Positions 16,424 to 55,999 of a stretch of DNA of 64,000 nt are shown piece by piece. A program made the translations under genes and the position numbers. The notes beneath the pieces were generated by a model. It was given only the letters and a program-made list of their open reading frames with translations. It had not been told where the DNA came from and searched no databases. Numbering within the stretch: position 1 is the first letter of the stretch; every line of letters begins with the position of its first letter. Origin of the DNA: Bradyrhizobium sp. NFR13 (lineage in GTDB: Bacteria; Pseudomonadota; Alphaproteobacteria; Rhizobiales; Xanthobacteraceae). The stretch covers positions 310,001 to 374,000 of the forward strand of contig NZ_FOTP01000002.1 of the NCBI RefSeq assembly GCF_900114605.1, read 5' to 3'.

Positions 16424-16554
16424 CTCGGCACCCAGTCTTGCCCAGTTGTTGTGATCGCCGGGTCCTCAGCGGTATCCTTCGGCTACAGCATAGCGAAAGT
16501 CGTGAGTGTCGAAGGACATCAAGGGAAGGCTACTGACGAGAGCCCCCCTGAGAG

Positions 16555-16568
16555 TTGATCTGAATCAA
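16555..16568. promoter_or_regulatory. FNR/FixK box, perfect
   Basis: TTGAT-CTGA-ATCAA. Lies between the HD gene (start 16423, minus) and the stop of the antiporter gene, so the HD gene is the target. A -41.5 placement gives a leader of about 97 nt. Confidence 0.8.
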
Positions 16569-16650
16569 CGCTCTGAAAGCCGCCTCCCGAAGCGTTCGAC
16601 GTCGAATAGAGCTGAGCGCCGGCGGTGCGCTGCCTCACCGAGCGCGAGCT

Positions 16651-17751
16651 TCACTCCACCCCTTGGCCCGTCGGCGGAACTACATATAGCGTCAGCGCAA
16701 AGACTGCGTAAATGAAGATGAGCAGGGCGCCGACGAACCAGGCCGAGCGACCGCTGCTCGTAATGAAGCTCGCCGTCACGGTCGCAATCATGACCATGGT
16801 GACGGCGCCGGGCCAGAATTGCAGGCTCATCGGCGACGGTCCGACCACATAGCTGAGTAGCACCAGGGCAGGCGCTACGAACAGCGCAATCTGGGAGGCG
16901 CTGCCTAGCGCAATGCTGACGCTCATGTCGAGGCGGTCCTTGCGTGCCGCAGAAAAGGCAACGGCAAACTCGGCGGCAGCCCCGACCATTGAGACGATGA
17001 TGAAGCCAACGAAGGCCGGGCTCATTCCAAAGGTTGCTGCGGCCTTCTGCACCGACTCGACAAAAATCTCACTCACAAGTGCAACCAGTACAGTGACAAC
17101 AAGCAGTGTTCCCACCGCAAGGACAATCGGCCAATGTTCCTCGCCTTCCTCGTGCGCGGCGCTTGCGAACAATTCCTTGTGGGTCTTCAGAGAGAACAGC
17201 AGGCCGAGTGCATAAGCAATGATGAGCAGGATGGCGAGGCCGATGCTGAGCTTCTGCATGACGGTCTCACCCTGCACAAGCTTCAGGTCGGCGACTGCCG
17301 ATGGAGCGAGCAGGGCAACGGTCGCCATGAGCAGGAGACCGGAGTAGAGCCGCGCGCCGGAGCGATTATATTCTTGGACGTGGTAGCGCAGACCGCCGAG
17401 GAGAAGACAGGCGCCGAGCATGAAAAGGGCGTTGGTGACAATCGCACCGGCAATCGACGCCTTCACCAGCATGTACTGGCCGGCCTGTAACGCGGTGATC
17501 GCAATGATCAGCTCCGTTAAGTTTCCCAGCGTCGCATTGAGCAACCCACCGACGGCATCACCGGTCTTGGCGGCAACCGCTTCGGTCGCGTGGCTGAGCA
17601 GGGCGGCCAGTGGCACGATGGCGAGAACCGAAAGCACGAACAGCAGCGTATGGGAATGCGGCGCTATTGCTTCCGCGACCAGCACGACAGGAACGAAGAT
17701 CAGCATCCAAAGCAGTGGTGTGTGCTGGATTTGCTTGAGCAGGGGTTTCAT
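16651..17751 (-). CDS. chaA: Ca2+/H+ antiporter (ChaA/Cax family)
   Basis: 366 residues from MKPLLKQIQHTPLLW. An open start 36 bp earlier would sit at the predicted transcript start, so 17751 is preferred. Eleven hydrophobic segments are visible with the two CaCA repeats: GGLLNATLGNLTELIIAI (first) and MVGAAAEFAVAFSAARKD (second), each with its ion-binding acidic residue. It exchanges cytoplasmic Ca2+ (or Na+/K+) for protons. The FixK-type box 70 bp upstream suggests control by oxygen, unusual for this transporter. Confidence 0.88.
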   Translation of the reverse strand: MKPLLKQIQHTPLLWMLIFVPVVLVAEAIAPHSHTLLFVLSVLAIVPLAALLSHATEAVAAKTGDAVGGLLNATLGNLTELIIAITALQAGQYMLVKASIAGAIVTNALFMLGACLLLGGLRYHVQEYNRSGARLYSGLLLMATVALLAPSAVADLKLVQGETVMQKLSIGLAILLIIAYALGLLFSLKTHKELFASAAHEEGEEHWPIVLAVGTLLVVTVLVALVSEIFVESVQKAAATFGMSPAFVGFIIVSMVGAAAEFAVAFSAARKDRLDMSVSIALGSASQIALFVAPALVLLSYVVGPSPMSLQFWPGAVTMVMIATVTASFITSSGRSAWFVGALLIFIYAVFALTLYVVPPTGQGVE

Positions 17752-17813
17752 AGCGGCGCCGTCTCCATATTGAACGCGACGGCGCAAACTCCGATCCGAT
17801 GACGGGACCGGTA

Positions 17814-17827
17814 TTGATCTAGCTCAA
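17814..17827. promoter_or_regulatory. FNR/FixK box, one mismatch
   Basis: TTGAT-CTAG-CTCAA, one base off. Centre 70 bp before chaA; a -41.5 placement gives a 28-nt leader. Confidence 0.7.
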
Positions 17828-17946
17828 CAAGACCACCAAGCTGGAAGGACGCGGATGCGCTTCGGGAGGGCCAGATTTCTTCCGACGGTCCGAGGCTGCG
17901 CACATCATCAATATCGAGTTGCGCCAAGGCCTGTCGATCTTGGATC

Positions 17947-18468
17947 TTAAGTGAGCTTAAGCACCAGGCTGACGATCTGGGGATCTTTTCGCGGGGCCGC
18001 CTTGAAGCCGAATTTTGTAAATATCTTTCGCATCGAGGTGTTTTCCGGAAGAACTTCTGCGGTCAGTTCTTTCAACCCGGCATCATTTCCGAGTTTGATC
18101 AGGTGCCGCATGAGGATCGAGCCTACGCCTCGCCCCTGCCACCCATCGACCACCATGAACGCCATCTCGGCCTGGCCTGGCTCGGAAACGATATATCTGC
18201 AACCACCCACCAGGACATTCCGGCCCGCGTCCTCAGCGCGCGCAACCAGCGCGACATGATTTTCGAAATCAATGTCCATGAAGAAGGCGCGCTCCTTGTC
18301 GGAGAAATGGCGCTTCATGACGAAAAAACGACGCTGCAGCGACTGCACGCTGGCCTGCGCCAGCGCAGCGAGCATGTCGGCCTCATCTTCCGGCCGAAGC
18401 GCCAGGATATTCACCAGGCGGCCATCGCGTAACTGCTCATGCGCGGTATAGGTGGCAGCATCGGACAT
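17947..18468 (-). CDS. GNAT-family N-acetyltransferase
   Basis: 173 residues from MSDAATYTAHEQLRDGRLVN. CGGAG lies 7 nt upstream; a longer open start would run into the FixK box and is rejected. It has the acetyl-CoA loop in VVDGWQGRGVGSILMRHLI (Q/RxxGxG/A) and the final strand VLPENTSMRKIFTKFGFKA. GNAT enzymes transfer acetyl to amines. This type (RDGRLVNILALRPEDEADML) resembles the acetyltransferase module of protein lysine acetylases linked to acyl-CoA metabolism, but target is unknown. It shares a box with the divergent permease gene. Confidence 0.8.
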   Translation of the reverse strand: MSDAATYTAHEQLRDGRLVNILALRPEDEADMLAALAQASVQSLQRRFFVMKRHFSDKERAFFMDIDFENHVALVARAEDAGRNVLVGGCRYIVSEPGQAEMAFMVVDGWQGRGVGSILMRHLIKLGNDAGLKELTAEVLPENTSMRKIFTKFGFKAAPRKDPQIVSLVLKLT

Positions 18469-18541
18469 GGGAGCTCCGCTGGCATGGCTTGGAAACCTGT
18501 TCGGCCCAGCGTCAAGCAAAGGGCGGCTGCCGGACGGAGGC

Positions 18542-18555
18542 TTGATCTGGATCAA
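18542..18555. promoter_or_regulatory. FNR/FixK box, perfect, in divergent spacer
   Basis: TTGAT-CTGG-ATCAA between the GNAT gene (minus) and the AI-2E-type permease gene (plus). -41.5 placement gives leaders of about 39 and 18 nt, so one box could serve both. Confidence 0.85.
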
Positions 18556-18607
18556 GACTACCGGATGACCGCAGCAGCAACGCTTGCGGACCTGAACAGA
18601 TCAAGGC

Positions 18608-19705
18608 GTGTCCGTGAGAACACTTCGCCGCGTTTTATCCGGGGACGATGTCATCCAGCTTGTGGTCCGGTTGGGATTGCTGGCGTTACTGGTGGTCTGG
18701 ACATTCATCGTGATCCGTTCCTTCGTGCCAATTCTGGCTTGGAGCGGTGTCCTTGCAGTCGCCTTCTATCCGGTTTTCAACTGGCTGTCCGAACTGCTCG
18801 GTGGCCGTCCCAGAACGGCTGCGACGATCCTCACAATTGTCAATCTTGGAATTGTGATCGGGCCGGCGACATGGCTGGGTTTGAGCGCGGTGGACGGGAT
18901 CAGACAACTCGCCGATGACCTGAGTGCCGGCAATCTGGTCATTCCGTCGCCGCCCGAACACATCAAGGAATGGCGTTTCGTCGGGCCCCAGCTTTATGAA
19001 ATCTGGAGTCGGGCGTTCAGCAATATCAGGACGGTGTTGCGCGAGGTCGCACCGTATTTGAAACCCTTGGCGGGGACGATGCTCACGCTTGCGGGGACTG
19101 CCGGCGTCGGTACGCTCAAGTTTCTGCTGTCCGTGCTTATAACCGGTTTTCTCTTCCCCTATGGTTCCCAACTGGCCGCGGGGGGAAGGCGCCTTCTTTC
19201 TCTCATCGTTCCCGAGCAAAGCGAACATTTGCTGGATTTGGCGGGAGCGACAATCCGCGCCGTCTCTCAAGGCGTGATCGGTGTCGCGGTCTTGCAGGCC
19301 CTGCTGGCCGGCATAGGATTCAAAATGGCCGGCATTCCTAGCGCCGGCCTGCTGGCCTTTGCAGTCATGCTGCTGGCCATTATTCAGATCGGCGCGGCGA
19401 TCGTCCTTCTTCCCGTGATCATCTGGATCTGGATGGACAAGGATTTCACCACAGCACTGCTGTTGACGGTGTTCCTTGGCCTGGTCGGCGTGCTCGACAA
19501 CATATTGAAACCGCTCGTGATGGGGCGCGGACTTACGACGCCGACACTTGTCATCTTCATCGGCGTCATCGGAGGAACTCTTGCGCACGGAATTGTCGGG
19601 CTCTTTATCGGGCCGATTGTTCTTTCGGTCGCCTGGGAGTTGATGGCGGCATGGATGCGTGAGGATCAATCCAAACCGGCGCCGGGGCTGACTGCGGACC
19701 CTTGA
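18608..19705 (+). CDS. AI-2E/PerM-family transporter
   Basis: 365 residues, GTG start. About eight transmembrane helices: a pair near the N-terminus (LGLLALLVVWTFIVI, SWSGVLAVAFYPVFNWL), a central amphipathic region, and the conserved C-terminal block VGVLDNILKPLVMGRGLTTP and FIGVIGGTLAHGIVGLFIGP. The family includes TqsA and Na+/H+ exchangers; substrates vary and none is implied here. The stop codon overlaps the next FixK box, which drives the following operon, so this gene is probably a single transcription unit. Confidence 0.85.
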   Translation: MSVRTLRRVLSGDDVIQLVVRLGLLALLVVWTFIVIRSFVPILAWSGVLAVAFYPVFNWLSELLGGRPRTAATILTIVNLGIVIGPATWLGLSAVDGIRQLADDLSAGNLVIPSPPEHIKEWRFVGPQLYEIWSRAFSNIRTVLREVAPYLKPLAGTMLTLAGTAGVGTLKFLLSVLITGFLFPYGSQLAAGGRRLLSLIVPEQSEHLLDLAGATIRAVSQGVIGVAVLQALLAGIGFKMAGIPSAGLLAFAVMLLAIIQIGAAIVLLPVIIWIWMDKDFTTALLLTVFLGLVGVLDNILKPLVMGRGLTTPTLVIFIGVIGGTLAHGIVGLFIGPIVLSVAWELMAAWMREDQSKPAPGLTADP

Positions 19706-19715
19706 CCTAGATCAA
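19702..19715. promoter_or_regulatory. FNR/FixK box, one mismatch
   Basis: TTGAC-CTAG-ATCAA, overlapping the stop of the permease gene. Centre 61 bp before the DUF3141 gene; predicted leader about 20 nt. Confidence 0.75.
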
Positions 19716-19769
19716 CGATGCCTTGCGCAAAGCGCCCTGAATGAGTTTGCGCGACGATGAGGTCGGAAC

Positions 19770-21992
19770 ATGTCGAAGGAAGTGTCAAACTTGCCGGGCG
19801 GTCCGATGTCCGGGCTCGTTGCCTCGGCAGTGGAGTACATGGTCGATGCCGGGCAGCGGAGCATGCTGTTCCTGGATGTCATGCGCCAACGTGGCGATCA
19901 GTACCGTGAACATGTCGCGCAGACCGCACCGCATGTACTTCAGTATTCAGCCGAATTGATCATCGATGGTCGCACGCTGAACGACCCCGTGAACTACGCG
20001 CTGGTCCGTATCATTCCGCCCGAGGGCGTTGAGATCGATCTCGAGCGGCGGCCATTCATCGTCGTCGATCCCCGTGCGGGTCACGGTCCGGGCATTGGCG
20101 GTTTCAAAGCCGACAGTGAAATAGGCGTAGCGATGAAAGCCGGTCATCCCTGCTATTTCATTGGCTTCCTGCCGGAACCGATGCCGGGACAGACCATCGA
20201 GCGCATTGCGCGTGCCGAGGCGCAGTTTATCGAGAAGGTCATCAGCCTGCATCCCAGGGCCGATGGCAAACCCTGTGTCATCGGAAATTGCCAGGCCGGT
20301 TGGGCCGTCATGATTTTGGCATCGCTGCGGCCGGAGCTGTTCGGACCGCTGATCATCGCAGGCGCTCCGCTCGCTTATTGGGAAGGAGTGCACGGAAAAT
20401 ATCCGATGCGCTATTCGGGTGGCCTGTTGGGAGGTAGTTGGCTGACCGCGATGACCAGCGATCTCGGTGCAGGCAAGTTCGACGGCGCCTGGCTGGTGCA
20501 GAATTTCGAGAACCAGAATCCCTCCAACACGCTGTGGACCAAGCAGTACAATGTCTATTCCAATATCGATACCGAGGCGGATCGATATCTTGAATTCGAG
20601 CGCTGGTGGGGCGGTCACGTCAATCTGAATGCCGAAGAAATCCAGTTCATCGTCGACGAGCTTTTCATCGGCAACAACCTCGCTGCCGGCAAGGTCGAGA
20701 TGTCGGACGGCCAGAAGGTCGATTTGCGCAATATCAGGTCGCCGATCCTGGTGTTCTGCTCGGAGGGCGACAACGTTACACCGCCACAGCAGGCGCTGAA
20801 CTGGATCCTCGATTGCTATGCCGATGTGGATGAGATCAGGGCGTATGGGCAGACGATTGTCTATACGGTTCACAAGAGCATCGGCCATCTCGGCATTTTC
20901 GTGTCCGGCGGCGTCGCCAAGAAGGAACACACGGAGTTCTCCAGCAACATCGATCTCATCGACGTATTGCCGCCGGGTCTCTACGAAGCAACCTTCGAGG
21001 CCAAGGGTGAGGCGACCGCGAGTGCCGACCTCGTCGTCGGTCAATGGGTGATGCGCTGTGAGGCGCGGACGCTTGATGACATCAGGGCCATGGGCGGCAA
21101 TTCACCGGAGGACGAGCGGCGCTTCGCTGCTGCCAAACGTGTGTCGGAGATGAATCTCGCTGCCTACCAGAAGTATGTTCACCCCTGGCTCAAGAATGCA
21201 GTGACGCCGCAAATGGCGGAAGTGATGCGCAATCTGCATCCGCTACGGCTTCAGTATGAAGCTTTCAGCAGCAAAAATCCCTGGATGAGCTGGGTGAAGT
21301 CTGCGGCAGAAAGTATTGAGGGGAATCGCAAGCCGGTTTCGAAGGACAATCCCTTCCTGGCGTTTCAGGAGCAGATGGGAAAGCAGATCGTTCATGCCCT
21401 GGATAGCTGGCGCGACTCTCAGGAAGCGTTCAGCGAGGCCATGTTCCTCAACATTTATGGTTCGCCCGCATTGCAGGCAGCCGTCGGCATTGATCCGGAA
21501 TCCGAGCCTTCGCGCCGCCGGGAGATGTCGGCTGAACACCGAGCCATGCTTGACAAGAGGATCGCTGAACTCAAGTCCAGGATTGCAGAAGGTGGCCTGC
21601 GCGAAGCGACCTTGCGTTCGTTGCTCTACATAGGCTCTGCGCGGGGAATGGTCGATGAGCGAAGCATCGAGGCGCTGCGCCAGGTTCGGCGGGATCAGGC
21701 CGAGGCACAAATAACGCTGTCCGAATTCAAGACCCTGGTGCGCGAGCAGTTCTTCATGCTGTTGCTCGATCCGGAAGGGGCGCTGGCGGCTATTCCGGCA
21801 TTGCTGCCTGCGGATCACGGTCAAAGGCAGGCAATTTTCGCTGCGATGCGTGAGGTGTTGTCCGCGAGCGGCGAGATCACCGGCGAGCGCGCAGTCAGGC
21901 TCAAGCGGATCGCCGGGTTGTTCGGTGTGGAAGCGGGCGAGGTGGTGGCGTCAAACGTTACCCCTTTCGATCCAGAGGCGAGAGCGTCGTAG
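19770..21992 (+). CDS. DUF3141 protein, PHA-synthase-like alpha/beta hydrolase
   Basis: 740 residues. The N-terminal half is an alpha/beta-hydrolase fold with a PHA-synthase-type lipase box GNCQAGWA (Cys174 as candidate nucleophile), an Asp in VFCSEGDNVTPP and His in KSIGHLGIFVSGG: a full Cys-Asp-His set. The C-terminal half (about 420-740) is helical and rich in charged residues. Family members are annotated as poly(3-hydroxyalkanoate) synthetase-like and recur beside phosphate acyltransferase, acetate kinase and FabI genes, as here. No N-terminal signal. Whether it makes or breaks polyester is unknown; it heads a FixK-controlled operon. Confidence 0.85.
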   Translation: MSKEVSNLPGGPMSGLVASAVEYMVDAGQRSMLFLDVMRQRGDQYREHVAQTAPHVLQYSAELIIDGRTLNDPVNYALVRIIPPEGVEIDLERRPFIVVDPRAGHGPGIGGFKADSEIGVAMKAGHPCYFIGFLPEPMPGQTIERIARAEAQFIEKVISLHPRADGKPCVIGNCQAGWAVMILASLRPELFGPLIIAGAPLAYWEGVHGKYPMRYSGGLLGGSWLTAMTSDLGAGKFDGAWLVQNFENQNPSNTLWTKQYNVYSNIDTEADRYLEFERWWGGHVNLNAEEIQFIVDELFIGNNLAAGKVEMSDGQKVDLRNIRSPILVFCSEGDNVTPPQQALNWILDCYADVDEIRAYGQTIVYTVHKSIGHLGIFVSGGVAKKEHTEFSSNIDLIDVLPPGLYEATFEAKGEATASADLVVGQWVMRCEARTLDDIRAMGGNSPEDERRFAAAKRVSEMNLAAYQKYVHPWLKNAVTPQMAEVMRNLHPLRLQYEAFSSKNPWMSWVKSAAESIEGNRKPVSKDNPFLAFQEQMGKQIVHALDSWRDSQEAFSEAMFLNIYGSPALQAAVGIDPESEPSRRREMSAEHRAMLDKRIAELKSRIAEGGLREATLRSLLYIGSARGMVDERSIEALRQVRRDQAEAQITLSEFKTLVREQFFMLLLDPEGALAAIPALLPADHGQRQAIFAAMREVLSASGEITGERAVRLKRIAGLFGVEAGEVVASNVTPFDPEARAS

Positions 21993-22023
21993 GGCAGATT
22001 CTGTCAACGGAAGTGGGAGCAAG

Positions 22024-22989
22024 ATGATGTCAGCTGACGCAAGCCAAGCACGATCTCCCAGTAAGTATGATCGATTGATCGCGGCGGCGAAGGCTGTGCC
22101 GCCGGTCCCGACTGTTGTCGTGCATCCTTGCGACGAGACCTCGCTGCGAGGTGCTGTCGATAGTGCGCAGGCAGGCATCATCCGGCCAATCCTGGTTGGC
22201 CCCGCTCAGAAGATCAAGGACACCGCAGAGAAGAGCGGCCTCAATATCGCGGGCTTCGAGATCGTCAATGCTGCGCATAGCGACGACGCTGCCGCCAAGG
22301 GTGTGGAACTGATTCATGCAGCAAAAGGCGAGATGCTGATGAAAGGCAGCCTGCATACCGACGAACTCATGCGAGCCGTGACGGCCAAGGTCGGCGGCTT
22401 GCGCACTAATCGGCGCATCAGTCATGTGTTCGTGATGGACGTTCCGGCCTATGCGGAGACCATTTTTGTCACTGATGCGGCGATCAACATCTTTCCGGAT
22501 CTCGCAGCCAAGCGCGACATCATCCAGAATGCCATCGATCTCTACAATCAAGCGGGGTTCGGCCAGTCTCCACGCGTGGCGATCCTCTCGGCAGTGGAAA
22601 CTGTCACCTCCATGATTCCCTCGACGATCGAGGCGGCAGCGCTTTGCAAGATGGCCGACCGCGGCCAGATCACTGGGGGAGTGCTCGACGGTCCATTGGC
22701 GTTCGACAATGCCATCGATGTCGAGGCGGCAAGGATCAAGGGCATCAAGTCCGAGGTGGCAGGACGCGCTCAGATCCTGGTCGTTCCCGATCTTGAGGCC
22801 GGCAACATGCTGGCAAAGAATCTGGCCTACTTCGCCAAGGCCGATGGCGCCGGTATCGTGTTGGGAGCCAGGGTGCCCGTCGTGTTGACATCGCGAGCGG
22901 ACACGGCACGCGCCCGGATGGCGTCCTGCGCCATAGCGTCGCTGTACGCGCATGCAAGGCGTCAACATGCACCAACAGTTTCCGGGTGA
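22024..22989 (+). CDS. pta: Phosphate acetyl/butyryltransferase
   Basis: 321 residues from ATG at 22024, 31 bp after the DUF3141 stop; upstream frame overlap is not coding. It converts acyl-CoA plus phosphate to acyl phosphate plus CoA. Family motifs: [71 protein letters not shown] and [13 protein letters not shown]. In related bacteria the same enzyme is often fused to an N-terminal MaoC hydratase; here MaoC is a separate gene at 25013. The stop overlaps the GTG of ackA region, so they are tightly coupled. Acyl specificity (acetyl, propionyl or butyryl) cannot be read. Confidence 0.9.
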
Positions 22990-22994
22990 CAGTC

Positions 22995-24209
22995 ATGGAC
23001 ACTATTCTGGTCGTCAATGCCGGCTCCTCAAGCGTCAAGTTTCAGATTTTCTCGGTTGAGGGAGAGGGGAGCTTGCAAAGGCGGATCAAGGGCCAGATCG
23101 ACGGGATAGGCAGCCGTCCGCGGCTGCGCGCGAATGGCCAGAACGGTGATCCGATGGCCGATCGCGCTTATCCGATCGAGGCTGTGGCAGATGTGCCGGC
23201 GGCGATGTCTGTCGCGGGCGCCTGGCTGCGCGACGAGCTGAATATCAACCCCATCGCCGTCGGCCATCGCGTCGTCCATGGCGGACCGGATTATGCAAAT
23301 CCGGTCTTGATCGATCATGGCGTTGTGGGGCGGCTGGAACGGTATGTCTCGCTGGCTCCCCTGCACCAGCCGCATAATCTGGCACCGATCAGGACGATTC
23401 TGAACAACTTCCCAACCCTGCCGCAGGTTGCCTGTTTCGACACTGCCTTCCATCGCGATCACGATGCGCTGGCGGACCACTATGCGATCCCGCATCAGCT
23501 CCATGCCGAAGGCATCAGGCGCTACGGCTTCCACGGCCTGTCCTACGAGTATATCGCCAAGCGGCTGCCGCAGGTCGCGCTAAATGTTGCCGGCGGGCGC
23601 GTGATCGTCGCCCATCTCGGTAGCGGAGCCTCGATGTGCGCGATCAAGAACGGAAAGAGTGTGGAGAGCACGATGGGCTTTACCGCCCTCGATGGTCTTC
23701 CGATGGGAACGCGTGCCGGCCAGATCGATCCGGGCGTCGTGCTCTACCTGATCGCGGAAAAAGGGATGTCCGTCTCTAAAGTGCAGGATTTCCTCTATCG
23801 GGATTGCGGTCTGAAAGGACTGTCCGGGGTCAGCAATGACATGCGAGAGCTCCAGACCAGCAATGATCCGCGGGCAGCATTTGCGGTCGACTATTTCGTC
23901 TACCGGGTCGGCCTCCATACCGGCATGCTGGCGGCCGCGCTGCAAGGCCTCGACGCCTTCGTGTTCACCGCTGGGATCGGCGAGAACTCGGCCACGATCC
24001 GGGCCCGCATTGCTGAAAAACTGGCCTGGCTTGGGATCACGCTCGATCCGACCGCGAATGCGGCAAATGCCAGCAAGATTTCAGGGACAGACAGCCGCGT
24101 TCCGGTCTTCGTCATTCCCACCGACGAAGAGTTGATGATTGCGCAACACACGCTGACGCTGCTGATGAATCCGAAAATGCAAAATCAGAAACGCGAGAGA
24201 GTATCATGA
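22995..24209 (+). CDS. ackA: Acetate kinase (acetate/propionate kinase family)
   Basis: 404 residues from [16 protein letters not shown]; a GTG at 22986 that overlaps the pta stop is also possible. The ASKHA kinase motifs are all present: [17 protein letters not shown] (substrate Arg), ACFDTAFH (Asp), [35 protein letters not shown] and [13 protein letters not shown]. It makes ATP and acetate from acetyl phosphate and ADP. With pta and the pfl operon it would complete a pyruvate-to-acetate ATP-yielding route under low oxygen. Confidence 0.93.
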
Positions 24210-24997: not shown

Positions 24998-25012
24998 TGT
25001 GTGGAACTTGCT

Positions 25013-25471: not shown

Positions 25472-25493
25472 CGCGATTCGTTCCTGCGCACGG

Positions 25494-26144: not shown

Positions 26145-26147
26145 GGG

Positions 26148-41932: not shown

Positions 41933-41942
41933 GGGGGATCAA

Positions 41943-48653: not shown

Positions 48654-48660
48654 GGCGTGG

Positions 48661-49107
48661 ATGGTTTGCGGTGATGCTCCCTGTCATTGCGCAGGAGGCG
48701 CTCAGGTCGGGGCGGGTCATTCGAAATTGCCGGTGGGCGCGCTGCACGACGATTTGGAGTTTCCCGTGAATACGATTGCAGCGCAGGTGTCGTCAGATCA
48801 ATCTTCCGCCGTTTTCCGCAGTGCGACGCTCTCCAGACGGCGTCTTTGCTTGGGCGCGTTCCTGATAGTCGTGACATCCGCTGTCGCACCAACTGCCGTC
48901 ACTGCTCAGCCGCTCACTACGTTTCGATATGAAATGCAGGCGCAAGCGCATTGTCCTCATGATTCCGTTGTTTGGCTCGATTTCCGCAAGGAGGTCTACT
49001 ACCTCAAGCGACAGAAGAAATACGGGCGAGGCGGGACGGGAAGTTTCGTTTGTCGGAAAGAAGCTGGCGATAGCGGCTTTCGGCATTCGCTACTTGGGGT
49101 GAGATGA
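48661..49107 (+). CDS. Exported hypothetical protein
   Basis: Up to 148 residues; the true start is unclear (a GTG near 48766 gives a signal-like RRRLCLGAFLIVVTSAVAPTAVTA). Conserved C-terminal part: AQAHCPHDSVVWLDFRKEVYYLKRQKKYGRG, GSFVCRKEAGDSGFRHSLLGVR, with two cysteines. I recognise this as a small family of alphaproteobacterial secreted proteins, without a function. It begins 8 bp after the glycine-rich gene and is last in the DUF3300 operon. Confidence 0.6.
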   Translation: MVCGDAPCHCAGGAQVGAGHSKLPVGALHDDLEFPVNTIAAQVSSDQSSAVFRSATLSRRRLCLGAFLIVVTSAVAPTAVTAQPLTTFRYEMQAQAHCPHDSVVWLDFRKEVYYLKRQKKYGRGGTGSFVCRKEAGDSGFRHSLLGVR

Positions 49108-49213
49108 GGTTGACCTGCTCTGTTGAACGAGAGGACGACGTCAAATTTTCTGGTCTCTGTCGGGCTGGTAGCAGCGCAAGAATGGAGGCTACCGCTATTA
49201 GCGGTTCAACCTG

Positions 49214-50134
49214 CTATTTCTGATCTCGATAGGATGCACCGAACGCCGCACGGTAAATCGCCCAGTAGACGATGCCGACAAAGCCGGCACCTCCCACGAT
49301 GTTGCCAAGCGTCACCGGTACGAGGTTGTGGATGATGCCGGCCAGCGTGATCGACGATGCGTCGACATTCGCCGGGATCTGGCCAGTCTGGGTCATCAGC
49401 CACGCCAGTGGCAGGAAATACATGTTGGCGACGCAGTGCTCGAAGCCGGCCGCGATGAAGGCGGAGATCGGCAACACAACAGCAATCATCTTGTCGGTGA
49501 CCGATCTGCCTGCATAAGCGAGCCAGACGGCGGCGCATACGAGCACGTTGCACAAGACGCCCTTGAAGAACAGCGTCAGCAGATCGGGGCGGATTTTGCC
49601 AACTGCTGTATTCAACACTGATAGACCGATGCGGCCATCATTCATCTCGAGATGATGGGAGAAGAAGACGAGAACAATGAGGCCGAGCGCTCCAAACAAA
49701 TTCCCGAACCAGACGATGGTCCAGTTGCGCAGCATCGTCCGCGTGGACACCTTTCCGCTCGCCCAGGCCATGACGATCAGATTGTTGCCGGTAAACAGCT
49801 CGGCTCCGCCCACAAGAACGAGGGCCAGCCCCAGAGAGAAGACGAGCCCTCCGACGACGCGTACCGTCGCGAAGCTGAGCGACGGATCGCTGGCGACGAT
49901 CGTAAAGTAGATCGCGCCGAAGCCAATGCCTCCGCCTGCGACGGTTGCCAGCATGAAGGAGGCCAGAAGCGGCAGGTTGGCCTTTTTGACGCCGACCTTC
50001 TCGACAGCCTCCTTGATTTCGGCAGGACTGTAAGCCTGCAGATTGAAGATCGGCGGTTGCGACACGGACGCACCCTCGGCCGTTCCAACGCCTTGCTCTT
50101 GATGTCCCTTCGCGGGGCTATCCACCGGCGCCAC
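49214..50134 (-). CDS. focA: Formate/nitrite channel FocA
   Basis: 306 residues; six transmembrane helices. FNT motifs: GGGIGFGAIYFTI, GGAELFTGNNLIVMAWASG, and GFEHCVANMYFLP (pore His near GFEH), with ITLAGIIHNLVPVTLGNIVGG. It exports formate and takes it back up. Its start overlaps the antiporter gene and it ends the pflB-pflA-antiporter-focA operon, matching pyruvate formate-lyase. Confidence 0.9.
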   Translation of the reverse strand: MAPVDSPAKGHQEQGVGTAEGASVSQPPIFNLQAYSPAEIKEAVEKVGVKKANLPLLASFMLATVAGGGIGFGAIYFTIVASDPSLSFATVRVVGGLVFSLGLALVLVGGAELFTGNNLIVMAWASGKVSTRTMLRNWTIVWFGNLFGALGLIVLVFFSHHLEMNDGRIGLSVLNTAVGKIRPDLLTLFFKGVLCNVLVCAAVWLAYAGRSVTDKMIAVVLPISAFIAAGFEHCVANMYFLPLAWLMTQTGQIPANVDASSITLAGIIHNLVPVTLGNIVGGAGFVGIVYWAIYRAAFGASYRDQK

Positions 50135-51719
50135 TCGTCGCCAGAAGCCCGACGATCTGCGCTGCGATCACCTTCACGAGCGTCATTGAAGGGAAAATCA
50201 TCGCGTAACCGATATCCGGGCGTTCGGTCGGCGCCATCTTCGTCGAATAGACCAGAATGGCCGGGTTTCCGGTTGCGCCGGATGCCACGCCGACCAGGTC
50301 GTCGTAAGGAATCTTCATCACATAATGGCCAACCAGCAGGACGATGAAGACGGTCGTCAGAAGCACGGCGACGCCGATGAACAGCATCGTGAACCCTGAT
50401 TCGGACACCGTGCGGACAAAGGGCTGTCCGGCATTCACGCCAACGGTTGCAAGAAACATCGCCAGACCAAAGTTTCGAAGAACAATGTTAGCCGGCAACG
50501 GCATGGTCCAAAGCATGGGGCCGGTGCGGCGGAGCTTGCCGAGAATGAGCGCAACGATCAGTGGCCCGCCGCCAATGCCGAGCGTCACAACACCCACGCC
50601 TGGGATCGGAATGGGGATCAGACCGAGAAGGACGCCCATGACCATGCCGAGACCGAGCGAAACATAACTAAATTCGGCAGCCGCCTTGACGCTATCGCCG
50701 AAGTGCTTTCGGATCTCCTCCTTCTTTTCGGGCGGCGTTAGGACTCCGACACGGTCGCCGAATTCCAGCATGAGATCGGGGGAGGGGACGAGGTCGGCGT
50801 CGTAGCGCCGGACGTGCAGGATGTGCGCTGGCACTCCGGGTGGCATCGTCAACTTCGAAAGTGCTACGCCGACAATGTTGCCCTTGCCTACGAACACGCG
50901 GATGTAATCCAGGTCGGCGCGGTCGCTCGCGAGCCGGCCCGGTTCGAGCCGGCCGATACGTTCAGCCGCCAATGCGATTTCCTCTTGCCGATCGGCCACG
51001 ACGAGTATGGCGTCTCCCGCATTCAGAACGGTGCCGTCTGTCGGCACGACGTTGCGGCCGTTCTGGCGGACCATGGTAATCTGCAGCTCGGCGAGCGAGT
51101 CTGCAGCAAGGTCCTTGAGCTTCGCACCGGCAAAGTTCTCTCCGATCGTAATCTCGCCCATGTGGAAATTCTTGGTCTTGGCCGGGAACTTGGGCTTTAC
51201 GATCTGAGTCATGAAGTAGATGCAGAGAATCGGCCCGATGACCCCAAAGGGATATGCAATCGAATAACCGATCGACGGATCCTTGTTCTTCATAACGTCG
51301 AGCGCCGCCTGAAGCGTTGCGGTGCTCGTCATCGATCCGGCATAGAGGCCAAGCGTATGTCCGATCTTGATGCCGAAGATGTGGCCCAGTGCAAGCGCAA
51401 CTCCGAGACCAGCGAGGCAAGCAATGAGGGCCAGCAGATTGTACTTCTGCCCCACGCCAAACATGCCCTCGAAGAACTGGCGGCCGTAAAGGATGCCGAT
51501 GCCGTAGAGGAACATGATCAGGCCGGTGAGGCCGATGGGTCCGATGATCTGGGCCTTGGGCGCGAACGCGCCGATCGCAAGACCGACGAACAGGACCGCA
51601 CCGACGCCGAGCGAAAATCCGAAGATGCTGATCTGGCCCACCAGATAGCCCACTCCGATCGCCAGAAACGCCGTCAGGATCGGCTGGCTTCCAATGATGT
51701 CGCGTGCAAGATCCAACAT
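50118..51719 (-). CDS. AspT/YidE-family antiporter with two RCK_C (TrkA-C) domains
   Basis: 533 residues from MLDLARDIIGSQPIL; GGGGAG is about 9 nt upstream, and a longer start 54 bp earlier would overlap pflA. Eleven or so helices in two halves surround two RCK-C domains (about 190-350: HMGEITIGENFAGAKLKDLA; LDYIRVFVGKGNIVG). AspT swaps aspartate for alanine; relatives carry other carboxylates such as oxalate or succinate. Between pflA and focA it may exchange a fermentation acid; the substrate is not readable. Confidence 0.85.
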   Translation of the reverse strand: MLDLARDIIGSQPILTAFLAIGVGYLVGQISIFGFSLGVGAVLFVGLAIGAFAPKAQIIGPIGLTGLIMFLYGIGILYGRQFFEGMFGVGQKYNLLALIACLAGLGVALALGHIFGIKIGHTLGLYAGSMTSTATLQAALDVMKNKDPSIGYSIAYPFGVIGPILCIYFMTQIVKPKFPAKTKNFHMGEITIGENFAGAKLKDLAADSLAELQITMVRQNGRNVVPTDGTVLNAGDAILVVADRQEEIALAAERIGRLEPGRLASDRADLDYIRVFVGKGNIVGVALSKLTMPPGVPAHILHVRRYDADLVPSPDLMLEFGDRVGVLTPPEKKEEIRKHFGDSVKAAAEFSYVSLGLGMVMGVLLGLIPIPIPGVGVVTLGIGGGPLIVALILGKLRRTGPMLWTMPLPANIVLRNFGLAMFLATVGVNAGQPFVRTVSESGFTMLFIGVAVLLTTVFIVLLVGHYVMKIPYDDLVGVASGATGNPAILVYSTKMAPTERPDIGYAMIFPSMTLVKVIAAQIVGLLATSGAGG

Positions 51720-51757
51720 AGTTCTGAACTCCCCGAATTCGCCGAATAGTCGGTTGA

Positions 51758-52585
51758 TCAGCGTGCCTGACACCCCGCAGCCCGGAACTGTTCGAGCACC
51801 CGGTTCACCAGGTCCCGGCTGGGTGGCAGCGTGTCAGCTAGCTTGTATTCGAGACCCATCGTCTTCCACTTGAACGCGCCCATCTGGTGGAAAGGCTGCA
51901 CTTCCACCCACCGGACATTCTTCATCGGCGCGACGAATTTCGCGATTCCGTCGACATTCGCCGGATCGTCAGTCTCGCCTGGGACGAGCGTGAACCGAAC
52001 CCAGACCGGCTTCGAGATCGAAGCCAGGCGTTCGGCGAAGCGAAGCGTTGGCGCGATGTCGCGGCCAGTGGTTCGACGATAGGTTTCGGGATCCGAACTC
52101 TTGATGTCGAGAAGAACAAGGTCGATCTCGGACAGGTAGGCATCGTCCACGCGATCGCCCAGGAATCCGGAAGTCTGAATGGCGGTGTGCAGGCCCATTT
52201 TCCTGGCGCCAGCGAATATTCGCTGGGTGAATGCACGCTGCACCATTGGCTCGCCGCCCGAGATGGTCAGCCCGCCGCCAAGAGCCTGAATGGAGGGCGC
52301 GAAATCGGCGAGGCGACGGAGCACCTGATCGGCCGAGACGTAGGTGCCGTCCTTGAGGTGCCAGGTGTCCGGATTGTGACAATAAGTGCACCGCAGAAGA
52401 CAACCCGAGACGAACAGCACAACGCGCAAGCCGGGCCCGTCATAACGGGAGGACGTCTCATAGGAATGGCAATATCCGAACGCGCCCTCCTGGTCCTTGA
52501 ACTGTTCGTCATCGGGCGCGTCGGGCGAAATCCCGACCCGGAGGTCATGACGACTTCCGGGCTCCAGTGTCTGCACCGTCGACAT
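51758..52585 (-). CDS. pflA: Pyruvate formate-lyase-activating enzyme (radical SAM)
   Basis: 275 residues with the radical-SAM cluster CLLRCTYCHNPDTW, then LTISGGEPMVQ (SAM/GGE motif). It uses S-adenosylmethionine and a [4Fe-4S] cluster to place the glycyl radical on PflB. Slightly longer than the E. coli enzyme (246). It follows pflB by 12 bp on the same strand. Confidence 0.94.
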   Translation of the reverse strand: MSTVQTLEPGSRHDLRVGISPDAPDDEQFKDQEGAFGYCHSYETSSRYDGPGLRVVLFVSGCLLRCTYCHNPDTWHLKDGTYVSADQVLRRLADFAPSIQALGGGLTISGGEPMVQRAFTQRIFAGARKMGLHTAIQTSGFLGDRVDDAYLSEIDLVLLDIKSSDPETYRRTTGRDIAPTLRFAERLASISKPVWVRFTLVPGETDDPANVDGIAKFVAPMKNVRWVEVQPFHQMGAFKWKTMGLEYKLADTLPPSRDLVNRVLEQFRAAGCQAR

Positions 52586-52597
52586 GGTGCACCTCGC

Positions 52598-54868
52598 TCA
52601 GATCTGGCCGTGGAAAGTACGGTTGATCACATCACGTTGCTGCTCCGGCGTCAGCCGGACGAAATTCACGGCGTAACCCGAAACCCGGATCGTGAGTTGC
52701 GGATACTTGTCCGGGTTCTTCATCGCGTCTTCGAGCGTCTCCCTGTCGATCACGTTCAGGTTCATGTGGAAACCGCCGCGATCGAAATAGACGTCGAAGG
52801 CTTTGACGGCTTCATCGACGAGCTGGTCATCCGACAGGTGAGCCTTCTGGGGAGCGACCGAGACCGTGTAGCTGATGCCGTCCTGGGCATCCTTGTAGGG
52901 AAGTTTTGAGACCGAGAGGCAGGAGGCGAGCCAGCCGTGGCTATCGCGTCCGTGCATTGGATTGGCGCCCGGTCCGAACGGCTCTCCCTTTCGCCGTCCG
53001 TCGGGGGTATTTCCCGTAGCCTTGCCGTAGACGACGTTGGAGGTGATCGTGAGCACGCTCTGGGTATGTGTCGCGTTCCGGTAGGTCGGATGCTTGCGGA
53101 TCTTCTCCATGAAGCTGGTCACAAGGCTTGAAGCGATCTGATCGACCCGATCGTCATTGTTGCCGAACTGGGGCGTCGACTGGTTACCCTCGTTCTTGTA
53201 GTCAACGACAAGTCCTGTTGCATCCCGCGTAACGCGGACCTTTCCGTATTTGATAGCGCTGAGACTATCGGCAACCACCGAAAGACCTGCGATGCCGAAT
53301 GCCATCGTGCGCAGGATATCGCGATCATGGAGCGCCATCTCCAGACGCTCATAGAAATACTTGTCGTGCATGTAGTGGATGCAATTCATCGCATGGACGT
53401 AGACCCTGGCGAGCCACTCCATCGTGCTATCGAACTTGGCCATGACGTCGTCGAAATCGAGGAAATCACCCACAACGGGCTGCGACGTCGGGGCAATCTG
53501 TTCGCCGGATACTTCGTCCCGGCCGCCATTGATGGCGTAAAGCAGCGCCTTCGCCAGGTTGACGCGCGCGCCGAAGAATTGCATCTGCTTTCCAAGGCGC
53601 ATCGCCGAAACACAGCAGGCAATCCCGTAGTCATCTCCCCAGAAGGGCCGCATCAGATCGTCATTCTCGTACTGAAGCGAGGAGGTATCCTTGCTGACCT
53701 TCACGCAATAGCGCTTGAACGGCTCCGGCATCTTGGTGGACCAAAGCACAGTGATGTTTGGTTCGGGCGCCGGGCCGAGATTGTAAAGCGTGTGCAGCAT
53801 CCGATAGCTGCTTCGGGTCACCAGTGCCCGGCCATCCAGATCCATTCCGCCAACACATTCGGTCGCCCAATAGGGGTCGCCGCTGAACAGTGCGTCGTAA
53901 TCAGGCGTGCGGAGGAAACGAACGATACGGAGTTTCTGGACAAGCTGGTCCCAGAGCTCTTGCGCTCCGGCCTCGTCCAGAATGCCGGCCTTCAGGTCCC
54001 GCTCGATATAGATATCGAGGAAGCTCGATATACGGCCGATCGACATCGCGGCGCCGTTGGCTTCCTTGATGGCGCCCAGATAGGCAAAGTAAGTCCACTG
54101 AAATGCTTCCTGGGCATTCGCCGCGGGCTTGGAGATGTCGTGACCGTAGAGTTTCGCCATGGATGCGAGATCAGCGAGCGCGCGCATCTGCTCCGATAGT
54201 TCTTCACGCGTCCGGATGATTTCATCGGTGGGCCACATATCGTTGATCTGCGCGCGCTCCGCCCGCTTCGCCTCAAGGAGGCGGTCGGTTCCGTACAGAG
54301 CCACCCGGCGATAGTCACCGATGATGCGGCCACGTCCGTAAGAGTCGGGCAGGCCGGTGACGATCCCCGATCGGCGACAGTTCATGATCTCGGGTGTGTA
54401 GACGTCGAACACGCCGTCATTGTGCGATTTGCGATATTTCGTGAATGCTTCGTGCACGCGCGCGTCAGGTTTGAAGCCTGCAGCTTCCAGGCCGTTCTCG
54501 ACCATCCTGAGGCCGCCGAACGGAAAGATCGCGCGCTTGAAAGGCTGATCTGTCTGCAGGCCGACGACGACTTCGTTATCCTTGTCGATATAGCCAGCAT
54601 TGTGTGCCAGCATGGTCGAAGGGGAGGCGGCATCCACCGCAAGTACGCCCTTCTTTCTCTCATCGGCAAAATAGGGCTGCAGTTTTGCCCAGACCGCTTT
54701 TGTGCGGGCTGAAGGGCCTGTCAGGAAGTCCTCGTTGCCGGTGTAAGGCGTGACGTTCCGGGCAATGAAATCGCGGACGTTGATCGAGGTCTGCCAGTCT
54801 CCCGACCGAAACCCCTTCCAGCAATCCCCGGTATCGGCTTCCTTCCTGAGAGCGGCACTTGCTTTCAT
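52598..54868 (-). CDS. pflB: Pyruvate formate-lyase (formate C-acetyltransferase)
   Basis: 756 residues from [16 protein letters not shown], matching the 760 of E. coli; a longer open frame is rejected because it runs into leader sequence. Active-site pair Cys418-Cys419 (GIACCVSAM) has the same numbering as E. coli, and the glycyl-radical site is Gly731 in RVSGYAVNF (E. coli Gly734). It converts pyruvate and CoA to acetyl-CoA and formate. The radical is oxygen-sensitive, consistent with the perfect FixK box upstream. Few alphaproteobacteria carry it. Confidence 0.96.
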
Positions 54869-54967
54869 GGTACGTCTCCGTCCGATGCATTCTTGATTGG
54901 TGGGCCCGATGGAGCTGATCCATACGAGCAAGGGTGACGTATGTTGGTCTGGCCGAAGTGCTGATGT

Positions 54968-54981
54968 TTGATCTGGATCAA
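54968..54981. promoter_or_regulatory. FNR/FixK box, perfect, for the pfl operon
   Basis: TTGAT-CTGG-ATCAA, centre 107 bp before pflB; -41.5 placement gives a leader of about 65 nt. Confidence 0.85.
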
Positions 54982-55160
54982 GCTGATGCAGACATCGCTG
55001 CATCGACGCACGTCGTGCCTGTCAACGCTTCAGCGATCCGGGCTATCGTTGATTTTGACAACGCCCTCTTTCTGCCGCGCGCCGGATCGGGATCCGTGAT
55101 GCAGGCGCGATGCGGACGGCGTTGCTCTCGGAGGCGCCCGTTCGACGGAATCGATATCTT

Positions 55161-55193
55161 CACTTCGCAGCGCGCTTTGTGCGCTGCGAAGTG
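55161..55193. terminator. 13-bp perfect inverted repeat
   Basis: CACTTCGCAGCGC and its exact complement with a 7-nt loop, downstream of the secreted gene at 55219 and before the pfl promoter. No T-tract, so either a Rho-assisted terminator or an RNA hairpin. Rest of the 54869-55218 spacer has only the FixK box. Confidence 0.5.
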
Positions 55194-55218
55194 ACTTGGC
55201 GAGCGTCGCGGGCAAAAA

Positions 55219-55656
55219 TTACCAACCGTAATAATAGCGCGCGGCGCCATAGCGGGGATAATAGCCTCCGCCCCCATAGGGAGCGCAGTAGTCGGAAGCA
55301 TATCCACTGCTGTACGCGTAGCTGCCACCATAAGGGTATCCGCTGCCGTAATAGGGGTAAGCGTCGCCGTAATAGGCCGAACGTGCGATCGCACCGCCCA
55401 CGACCGCGCCGGCAGCGGCTGCGCCCCAGCCCCAACCCCGGTAGCCCCGATATCCCCAGCCGCGATAACCGCCCCAACCTCGGTAACCCCCGCCGCCGTA
55501 CCAGCGCCCGTAGCGTACTTGCAGCACTGGCGTGTCCAGCGCGGTCTTCATCGCGGCGACGTTGGTCGGCAGCGGTGCTGCCGTAGCGGGTGAGGCAGCA
55601 ATACCGATGGTGGTGATGGCAGATGCAGCAACGACCGTTGCCTTGATGAAGTTCAT
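55219..55656 (-). CDS. Small exported Tyr/Gly-rich protein
   Basis: 145 residues: signal peptide (to ATAAPLP), a short neutral part (NVAAMKTALDTPVLQVRY), then GYRGWGGYRGWGYRGYRGWG repeats, a hydrophobic GA stretch (GAAAAGAVVGGAIARSAYY, glycine zipper) and a Tyr/Gly tail with one Cys (SDYCAPYGGG). A common envelope-protein type in Bradyrhizobium; function unknown. A one-mismatch FixK box lies 123 bp upstream. Confidence 0.75.
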   Translation of the reverse strand: MNFIKATVVAASAITTIGIAASPATAAPLPTNVAAMKTALDTPVLQVRYGRWYGGGGYRGWGGYRGWGYRGYRGWGWGAAAAGAVVGGAIARSAYYGDAYPYYGSGYPYGGSYAYSSGYASDYCAPYGGGGYYPRYGAARYYYGW

Positions 55657-55772
55657 GACGTCCTCCTCATGGTTGAGACGGAACGAATTGAGCCGAGCGA
55701 TGCTCCATCTTTCGTTGCGAGGCAGCTCAAGGGCATAGCGATCTGATGGTTCTAGCGCTCGGGAGCGGGACC

Positions 55773-55786
55773 TTGACCTAGATCAA
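55773..55786. promoter_or_regulatory. FNR/FixK box, one mismatch
   Basis: TTGAC-CTAG-ATCAA, in a 343-bp spacer between the Tyr/Gly-rich gene (minus, predicted leader about 82 nt) and the small gene at 56000 (plus, about 179 nt). The minus-strand target is more likely. No other signal seen in 55657-55999. Confidence 0.7.
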
Positions 55787-55999
55787 CGTAGCCACCTCTG
55801 ACCGGTCGCTATTGGGCCAGGAAGATCCGGGTCGATCGACTTCAATCGGATCGTTGTCGTTGCTATCTCGCCGGCGCGGTCCGTACGGATCTCTCTCGTC
55901 GCGAGCCGGACGGCAGCTGACTGGCGGATCAGCCGAGTCGCACTACCGTTCGACATGCATGAACCATCCGCAGCTGTGCGAACTGAGAAAGGGTTCAAG

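Follow-up and report, generated by a model that had tools for sequence, protein, structure and literature searches.

A candidate low-oxygen FixK regulon carried on a tRNA-integrated island in Bradyrhizobium sp. NFR13

Regulons are usually pictured as scattered sites that have accumulated in place. Can a regulator, its sites and its targets also travel together? The question is raised by a stretch of 64,000 nucleotides from Bradyrhizobium sp. NFR13 (the window), in which a sequence-only reading had located twelve TTGAT-N4-ATCAA boxes and seen in them a low-oxygen FixK regulon island.

Concentration of the boxes

The twelve boxes were all recovered (12/12), six perfect and six with one mismatch as had been claimed. 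They are listed with the genes that they precede; the counts are of boxed orthologues in the best 80 of 356 loci (up to 81 related sources).

16555..16568, - strand: perfect box TTGATCTGAATCAA, upstream of an HD-domain-like gene at 15569-16423(-); 6/6 orthologues
17814..17827, - strand: one-mismatch box, upstream of the Na/Ca exchanger gene; 4/6 orthologues
18542..18555, no strand: perfect box, between divergent GNAT (-) and AI-2E-family transporter (+) genes; 13/18 and 33/41 orthologues
19702..19715, + strand: one-mismatch box, upstream of the DUF3141-pta-ackA-fabI operon; 65/81 orthologues
26871..26884, - strand: one-mismatch box, upstream of the CoA-transferase A/B-MaoC operon; 62/64 orthologues
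28478..28491, no strand: one-mismatch box, between divergent alpha/beta-hydrolase genes; 33/47 and 31/43 orthologues
35676..35689, no strand: perfect box, between DLH-like hydrolase (-) and DUF1275-SulP (+); 7/10 and 5/5 orthologues
38151..38164, + strand: one-mismatch box, upstream of an uncharacterised protein at 38335-38769; 9/18 orthologues
40175..40188, no strand: perfect box, between unknown-151aa/PPK2 (-) and DUF3302-like/HlyD-like (+); 23/23 and 17/17 orthologues
45577..45590, + strand: perfect box, upstream of the DUF3300-DUF2950 operon; 14/14 orthologues, every one perfect
54968..54981, - strand: perfect box, upstream of the pflB-pflA-AspT-focA operon; 1/2 orthologues passing the filter
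55773..55786, - strand: one-mismatch box, upstream of an uncharacterised protein at 55219-55656(-); retained in the congener G034

The first 16.4 kb had been described as free of boxes, and a one-mismatch site is found there at 9748 (TTGATCAAGATCGA). Another overlooked site with one mismatch, at 41894 (TTGTTGCCAATCAA), lies in the cluster but within an ORF. Both are probably chance occurrences. The window holds 14 boxes in all, against a mean of 1.56 and a maximum of 5 in 100 dinucleotide shuffles; this whole-window test is free of span-selection bias. Genome-wide (6.22 Mb) there are 20 perfect boxes, six of them inside the 39,367-bp span of the cluster, and 229 boxes with at most one mismatch, 13 of them inside it. 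The density in the span is 67-fold that outside for perfect boxes (binomial P 2.3e-9) and 9.5-fold with one mismatch allowed (binomial P 3.9e-9), both P values being too small by some factor because the span was drawn around the sites. Boxes of equal density elsewhere in the genome, which would have spoken against a regulon, are thus not found. A refined motif, TTGAYCYRGRTCAA, places all of the genome's exact sites (5/5) and 12 of its 31 sites with at most one mismatch in the span; this enrichment is circular because the motif was derived from the island's own sites, and its P value is set aside. We limited the use of an exact TTGAYCYRGRTCAA scan of 41 genomes to pointing out G034.

Promoter position and conservation

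Over 12 promoter classes, a -10 element of the form TANNNT shows its peak 22 nt after the box, a height reached by none of 20,000 rotations, and this supports boxes centred at -41.5, the spacing predicted. TTGAT-N4-ATCAA therefore lies upstream of the operons near -41.5, a position that comes from the -10 proxy and not from start-site mapping. The leaders, previously put at 18-65 nt, run from ~10 to 41 nt when taken from the coordinates, and three are longer (~82, ~97 and ~136 nt). The boxes are better preserved in G034 than their surroundings, with an identity of 167/168 vs 796/895 in the flanks (P 4e-7).

How are the boxes distributed among relatives? In the best 80 of 356 loci, operon first genes are boxed in 50-100% of orthologues (DUF3141 65/81, ctfA 62/64, unk151 23/23, DUF3300 14/14), and most internal genes in 0% (ackA 0/78, fabI 0/77, maoC 0/65, ctfB 0/69, PPK2 0/25, HlyD 0/19, DUF2950 0/15), some internal genes being exceptions. 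For each gene in each source the count took the best match alone, provided that it began no more than 25 residues from the beginning of the query, covered over half the length at 45% identity or more, and had 250 bp of upstream sequence. Six 22-kb loci were swapped for their 60-kb regions, and the shuffle control was mononucleotide only. Four first genes have six orthologues or fewer (PflB, DUF1275, CaX, unk284) and unk145 has none that pass. The locus set favours close relatives, having been cut down to the 80 best of 356 DUF3141 relatives. PflB has a one-mismatch box alongside in L069, L071, L074 and L076. Judged by these patterns, the boxes look functional.

On plasmids of Rhizobiaceae and Burkholderiales, the gene sets related to these are mostly without boxes. 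Thirteen plasmid loci (L209-L221) were inspected near DUF3141 or DUF3300-DUF2950: in L211 a one-mismatch box lies ~70 bp ahead of the DUF3141 match, in L214 one lies ~370 bp ahead of the annotated DUF3141 start and in L213 a perfect box lies ~1.4 kb ahead, and there is none near these genes in the remaining loci. The DUF3300-DUF2950 box was not seen in four plasmid loci (Sinorhizobium, Phyllobacterium, Paraburkholderia and Cupriavidus).

Gene content

The cluster includes the following gene groups.

19770..24997, + strand: DUF3141 (weak PHA-synthase-like match), phosphate acetyl/butyryltransferase, acetate-kinase family, enoyl reductase
25013..26795, - strand: MaoC hydratase and two CoA-transferase subunits
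28550..32422, + strand: 835-aa double alpha/beta hydrolase, second hydrolase, ion channel
35725..38103, + strand: DUF1275 and SulP permease
38812..40105, - strand: polyphosphate kinase 2 and an uncharacterised 151-aa protein
40201..45532, + strand: DUF3302-like (below cut-off), HlyD-like (sub-threshold biotin-lipoyl match, labelled by hand), DUF2092, sensor histidine kinase
45648..48653, + strand: DUF3300, DUF2950, uncharacterised 156-aa protein
49214..55003, - strand: FocA formate channel, AspT-type exchanger, PFL activase (radical SAM), pyruvate formate-lyase

Ends and distribution of the island

Genomic islands integrated at tRNA genes are marked by direct repeats of the tRNA 3' end, empty sites, lower GC and patchy presence. 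All of these are seen here, together with a hotspot that holds other cargo in three further congeners.

13379..13391, no strand: left attachment-site repeat GGCGGAAAGGGTG, a 13-bp exact repeat of the tRNA-Ser 3' end
60735..60747, no strand: right attachment-site repeat, inside the 3' end of tRNA-Ser(TGA) at 60734-60823(-)
15553..56910, no strand: core cassette common with G034, in four blocks of 87-94% nucleotide identity; at another chromosomal place in G034

Left-flank homology with four congeners ends at 13379-13396, and the island occupies 47.4 kb between the 13-bp tRNA-Ser repeats. In G034 the same 41.4-kb core lies between 49-bp repeats of tRNA-Gly, and the empty sites are reciprocal, the tRNA-Ser site being empty in G034 and the tRNA-Gly site empty here. 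The copy here is thus bounded on each side by a tRNA 3'-end repeat, and a relative shows the unoccupied site. The GC content of the island is 58.8%, vs 61.1-61.2% in the window flanks, and the DUF3141 gene is present in two of 18 genus genomes and missing from the other 16. On the evidence of these ends the cluster is literally a tRNA-integrated genomic island, which goes beyond what had been claimed for it, and most congeners searched are without it. It differs from the usual islands of this kind in that its cargo is one coherent regulon, no intact integrase was found and the same core occupies two tRNA sites.

No integrase was matched by Pfam in the 40 core ORFs, the flank ORFs or the G034 edge ORFs, not every small ORF being scanned, and the core and flank ORFs scanned gave no relaxase or mating-pair match that would denote an integrative conjugative element. 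A short ORF at the left edge of G034, considered as an integrase C-terminus, had no credible Pfam match. Among six Bradyrhizobium regions of 60 kb, three have a tRNA adjoining the cluster, but a tRNA 3'-end repeat of at least 12 bp was seen in none, which counts against the tRNA-inserted island; one or more of the six stop short of the far end of the cluster. Insertion at ssrA was also rejected, the junction falling at the tRNA-Ser next to it.

Is the cluster instead ancestral to the family, lost from most of the genus and relocated within the chromosome, and not gained by transfer at all? It has much the same gene order in several Bradyrhizobium. The core blocks of the two genomes are 87-94% identical (longest 91.3%), close to the backbone blocks at 92-95% (two at 88-89%), and with the core diverged at least as far as the backbone there has been no recent exchange between them. 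The two FixK proteins are moreover sisters (support 100/99). Yet clean reciprocal empty sites and tRNA-derived repeats at two different tRNA genes require insertion events, and the absence of DUF3141 from most of the genus also weighs against ancestry, which we regard as unlikely.

The island FixK and its neighbour

The fixK and fixJ-like genes that had been noted in the cluster are both there, adjoining each other.

32400..33146, - strand: island FixK (P0001), FixK2-sister clade; one Cys, at residue 7 only; ETVSR recognition helix
33439..34050, + strand: FixJ-type response regulator (P0002)

The best PDB match of the island FixK is FixK2 (4i2o). With its ETVSR helix, CRP-family domains and lack of an Fe-S cysteine set it belongs to the FixK family. 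It falls outside the canonical FixK2 clade, in a separate clade of 22 rows (support 97/97) made up of 20 rows labelled island and two further copies; other FixK2-like rows lie outside this clade, with the bootstrap not settled. All 18 genomes reached via island loci have a homologue at 72-85% identity, 15 of the 18 have at least one further FixK copy at 60-77%, and in three of the 18 relatives the FixK matches carry one in-frame stop. CRP-family regulators can pass horizontally, as described in PMC5449483. A box upstream of the regulators themselves is rare among orthologues in the best 80 of 356 loci (island fixK 1/16, response regulator 1/15), and the island's own fixK here has none.

The response regulator does not combine closest similarity to FixJ with an adjoining FixL. 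No kinase adjoins it, the nearest in the island being at 43619; it is 41% identical to its nearest paralogue, and a FixLJ-like pair on contig C16 is closer to FixLJ. It is FixJ-like, and not the FixJ of this genome. A kinase-regulator pair on contig C6 was rejected as FixLJ because its kinase is without a PAS domain by Pfam and the C16 pair fits better.

Which protein reads the boxes? Two other proteins of the genome, FnrN-like L004 and FixK-like L001, share the ETVSR helix; L004 also has several cysteines towards its N-terminus, and two one-mismatch boxes stand in tandem close to its start. The boxes might therefore be read mainly by a host Fe-S FnrN-type protein or another FixK paralogue, leaving the island FixK a minor role or another target. 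We doubt this, since a FixK of the island clade is beside or near the cluster in all 18 island-carrying genomes tested and in G034 (genomes picked via island loci), and in the genus identity above 90% to the island FixK is confined to the two island carriers, the next best being 68%. The weakest reading, clustering by chance or base composition, has next to no probability and is already refuted by the shuffles, conservation, promoter position and -10 spacing, even if sites 41894 and 9748 probably arose in that way.

Proposed explanation

We think it very probable that the boxes are FixK/FNR-type activator sites near -41.5 that switch on some twelve operons at low oxygen, and that these operons, the island FixK and the FixJ-type regulator form one tRNA-inserted island. 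What supports this in the sequence is the clustering of the boxes, their promoter position, their conservation and the spacing to the -10 element, and, for the island, the tRNA repeats, the reciprocal empty sites and its patchy occurrence. The initial view of a low-oxygen FixK regulon island is upheld by the box enrichment, the TANNNT spacing and the regulators inside. Low oxygen would act through a two-component relay (FixL-type kinase and response regulator) on the island FixK, which would in turn activate the island operons. Pta and acetate kinase would provide ATP from acyl-CoA, PFL would split pyruvate with export of the formate, PPK2 would buffer nucleotides, and membrane and periplasm would be adjusted. 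Entry into the chromosome would be by site-specific insertion at tRNA genes, tRNA-Ser here and tRNA-Gly in the congener, and such insertions imply integrase action in the past, although none is recognised in this copy.

More tentatively, and with somewhat less than even confidence, we suggest a self-contained transferable oxygen response: signals from the island's response regulator would reach the island FixK, and this protein would act at every one of the twelve promoters. A recipient would then gain a full low-oxygen energy programme by a single insertion, and common control would hold functionally unrelated operons together. The sequences suggest that an entire response to the environment can pass from one genome to another, since a 41-kb block occupies distinct locations in two related soil bacteria; its regulator, sites and targets seem to be carried jointly into different tRNA genes. 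The island is a testable case of whole-regulon transfer and of clustering among unlike operons. We found no published description of it among the titles and abstract openings listed, which were for the most part a portion of the matches, subscription journals being mostly outside the coverage.

Comparison with known systems

The FixLJ-FixK2-FixK1 regulon of Bradyrhizobium diazoefficiens (Mesa et al. 2008, as cited in PMC6515984, PMC4999443 and PMC10454721) has the same site type, with consensus TTGANCNNGATCAANG (PMC4999443), a FixK2-class regulator and the low-oxygen theme. Some of its induced genes are neighbours in number (bll4645-blr4658 and bll6060-blr6074 in the table of PMC6515984). The island differs in its separate FixK clade, its tRNA-gene integration and its DUF3141, CoA-transferase, DUF3300-DUF2950 and PFL genes; the terms DUF3141, DUF3300, AI-2E family and polyphosphate kinase are absent from the main text of PMC6515984. 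In B. diazoefficiens, a phaR mutant is reported to show induction of the candidate orthologues pta blr3457 and ackA blr3458, together with a rise in fixK2 and in the majority of the fixK2 targets (PMC10888616).

The lxa low-oxygen-activated locus of Burkholderia cenocepacia (Sass et al. 2013, via PMC6127331 and PMC3759415) is likewise a low-oxygen cluster (BCAM0275-BCAM0323), missing in some strains (H111), with a phosphate acetyl/butyryltransferase. It has six universal stress proteins, whereas no Usp match was found among the core ORFs scanned here, and the passages on lxa taken from those two papers mention no FixK, cluster-wide boxes or tRNA insertion.

The island places DUF3141, DUF3300, DUF2950 and DUF2092, families of obscure function, under a likely low-oxygen switch. 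DUF3300 and DUF2950 are plant-interaction candidates, described in PMC4653623 as a co-located pair induced in two RNA-seq studies and without a clue to function. The co-location is the same here. Unlike in that report, the pair in the island has a perfect FixK box in 14/14 orthologues, mostly from Bradyrhizobium (best 80 of 356 loci), and low-oxygen control through this box could account for its induction in root nodules.

Regulon and island

The window carries a genomic island integrated at a tRNA gene, and on it a predicted low-oxygen regulon under FixK control. The regulon had been proposed in the sequence-only reading, and is supported by site density, promoter position and conservation; we extend that interpretation to the island.

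The two host junctions (13379 and 60735) share a 13-bp repeat that matches the 3′ end of tRNA-Ser(TGA). In a congener, G034, four blocks of 87-94% identity match window 15553-56910; this core lies at ∼4.08-4.12 Mb of contig C1, a long way from the ssrA locus of that genome (0.27 Mb). At the latter, homology jumps directly from window position 13391 to 60721, so that the site is empty. Reciprocally, 45.7 kb of G034 is bracketed by an exact 49-bp repeat of tRNA-Gly(CCC), and nothing is inserted at the host tRNA-Gly locus, where the flanking sequences join with a 49-bp overlap. Three other relatives have other DNA at the tRNA-Ser site (G019, ∼7 kb; G020, ∼3 kb; G027, ∼17 kb), and it is therefore an insertion hotspot. 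The core has a GC content of 58.8%, compared with 55-56% for the edges and 61% for the window flanks. No integrase was recognised among the ORFs scanned, and no tRNA-end repeat of 12 bp or more was found in six 60-kb Bradyrhizobium regions.

DUF3141 is present in 2 of 18 genomes of the genus, and in 2 of the 11 with completeness of 90% or more and contamination of 5% or less. The closest relatives that bear a name are mostly Bradyrhizobium. The divergence between host and G034 is about equal in core and backbone, or slightly higher in the core; judged on this, there has been no late exchange of the core between them. Separate gain by the two genomes fits, as does an old element that moved and was lost elsewhere.

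Two large proteins are encoded in the low-GC edges, outside the core shared with G034 but inside the repeats; they have no Pfam match, look membrane-like by eye, and are probably other cargo of the hotspot:
13729-15477, edge protein
58635-60173, edge protein
At the G034 island edge (locus L165, 11069-11957), DnaA-N-like and HTH_36 ORFs adjoin the tRNA-Gly repeat, possibly remnants of the replication genes of an element.

Clustering of the boxes

The twelve FixK/FNR boxes (TTGAT-N4-ATCAA) listed earlier are all found in place, and one-mismatch sites at 9748 and 41894 had been overlooked. The window holds 14 sites, against a mean of 1.56 and a maximum of 5 in 100 shuffles. In the host genome (6,224,354 bases in 17 contigs) there are 20 perfect sites, with 6 inside the 39,367-bp span of the twelve boxes, and 229 sites with at most one mismatch, 13 of which fall inside. 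Density is not equal elsewhere in the genome: the value in the span is 67 times the outside value for perfect sites (P = 2.3e-9) and 9.5 times with at most one mismatch (P = 3.9e-9), P values that are optimistic since the span was drawn around the sites themselves. Outside it, among the matches listed, only one perfect-site pair falls within 39 kb, 0.8 kb apart on contig C14 and adjoining a ccoN gene.

Promoter geometry

Promoters were aligned on the box end in 12 equally weighted classes. Positions 27 and 28 after the box are the most informative within 45 nt, and TANNNT peaks at position 22; none of 20,000 random rotations reached this height at any position. With the 14-bp box placed from -48 to -35, position 22 would lie at -13, as a -10 element at most one base from its expected place. 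For this reason the boxes are most likely class II activator sites. Leaders estimated from coordinates, using likely start codons wherever the longest ORF starts too early, mostly measure ∼10-41 nt, with three operons having longer ones of about 82, 97 and 136 nt.

Conservation of box position

We compared 81 sources: 74 DUF3141-found loci in genome contigs, six 60-kb regions standing in for six more of the 80 DUF3141 loci (the best 80 of 356), and G034. Operon-starting genes are boxed far above the shuffle control, and the regulator genes seldom (FixK 1/16, FixJ 1/15). SulP, the second gene of its operon in the host, is boxed in 8 of 13; DUF1275 is not seen ahead of it in several relatives.

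Table. Orthologs with a box at most 250 bp upstream of the gene (shuffle control 0-0.9%).
First genes: DUF3141 65/81; ctfA 62/64; AI2E 33/41; abh308 33/47; abh835 31/43; unk151 23/23; DUF3302 17/17; DUF3300 14/14; unk284 6/6; DUF1275 5/5; GNAT 13/18; DLH 7/10; CaX (Na/Ca exchanger) 4/6; unk144 9/18; PflB 1/2
Operon-internal, no box: ackA 0/78; fabI 0/77; ctfB 0/69; maoC 0/65; unk204 0/47; abh286 0/46; PPK2 0/25; HlyD 0/19; DUF2950 0/15; unk156 0/12; HK 0/9; unk93 0/7; IalB 0/6; FocA 0/6; AspT 0/5; PflA 0/5
Operon-internal exceptions: ionch 4/12; unk138 2/11; DUF2092 2/3; pta 1/17

The G034 island has 13 sites, counterparts of the 13 here, and the remaining 58 kb of G034 DNA examined has none. 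Between the two genomes 167 of 168 bases are identical in the twelve boxes, and 796 of 895 in the 40-bp flanks.

Gene content

By Pfam and NCBIfam searches the island encodes a Na/Ca exchanger, a GNAT enzyme, an AI-2E-family transporter, DUF3141 (weakly similar to PHA synthases), phosphate acetyl/butyryltransferase, an acetate kinase family member, enoyl reductase, MaoC hydratase, CoA transferase, several alpha/beta hydrolases, an ion channel, FixK, a response regulator, an IalB-family protein, DUF1275, SulP permease, PPK2, DUF3302 (match below cut-off), DUF2092, a histidine kinase, DUF3300, DUF2950, FocA, an AspT-type exchanger, a radical-SAM activase and pyruvate formate-lyase (TIGR01255, above its cut-off). 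From these families, the enzymes would generate ATP from acyl-CoA without oxygen, pyruvate would be split and formate exported, and island products may alter the envelope.

By eye, two small proteins encoded in separate boxed operons resemble paralogues, both glycine-rich with a VxYRGxxYPFxVSG-type motif:
38335-38769, small protein
48183-48653, small protein

Related systems

The island resembles the FixK2 regulon in mode of working, but differs in FixK clade and cargo. A study of a B. diazoefficiens phaR mutant reports induction of pta (blr3457) and ackA (blr3458), with fixK2 and most of its targets rising too (PMC10888616); if these genes are the orthologues, this fits the box ahead of DUF3141-pta-ackA. 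Another study reports that DUF3300-DUF2950 is induced and that nothing hints at its function (PMC4653623); the FixK box offers a possible clue. The lxa locus, in the available part of its description, is alike in kind yet a different system.

Plasmids of Sinorhizobium, Ensifer and Caballeronia also carry the DUF3141-pta-ackA-fabI set, in most cases with no such boxes. On plasmid p1 of the betaproteobacterium Caballeronia grimmiae (L216, 3443-17092), AspT-like, DUF2950, PPK2, DUF3141, pta, ackA and fabI genes are grouped in a single stretch with no box at up to one mismatch; on its sequence, this is a comparable gene set without the FixK/FNR control site. On S. meliloti psymA (L218, 1-6441), response regulator, histidine kinase, DUF3300-, DUF2950-, DUF3302- and HlyD-like genes adjoin in island-like fashion, with no box in that stretch.

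Regulators

32400-33146, minus strand, island FixK (P0001)
33439-34050, plus strand, FixJ-type response regulator (P0002)

P0001 has a single cysteine and an ETVSR helix, which is of the FNR recognition type. Its best PDB match is B. japonicum FixK2 (4i2o, 280.7 bits). A homologue of 72-85% identity is present in all 18 genomes reached via island loci (the match has one in-frame stop in 3 of the 18), and 15 of the 18 have extra copies at 60-77%. In a 51-row tree whose bootstrap has not yet settled, all 20 island-labelled rows fall within a 22-row clade (support 97/97), separate from other FixK2-like rows; the two additional rows are second copies of G010 and G002.

Since the island fixK and response regulator genes mostly lack boxes, their expression probably depends on phosphorylated FixJ-type regulators. 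A FixLJ-like pair is present on contig C16 of the host. At E = 1e-25 or better, P0001 matches only itself, a C16 protein (45%) and an FnrN-like protein on C8 (40%) in the host genome, which has 17 HTH_Crp_2 matches, 12 above cut-off. The C8 gene has two one-mismatch boxes in tandem close to its start (633343 and 633368; L004 2293 and 2318), which suggests that it is autoregulated. In G010, a MAG titled Nitrobacter sp. 62-23, two FixK genes (C118:22038 and 40379), each 77% identical to P0001, lie 18 kb apart on the same contig.
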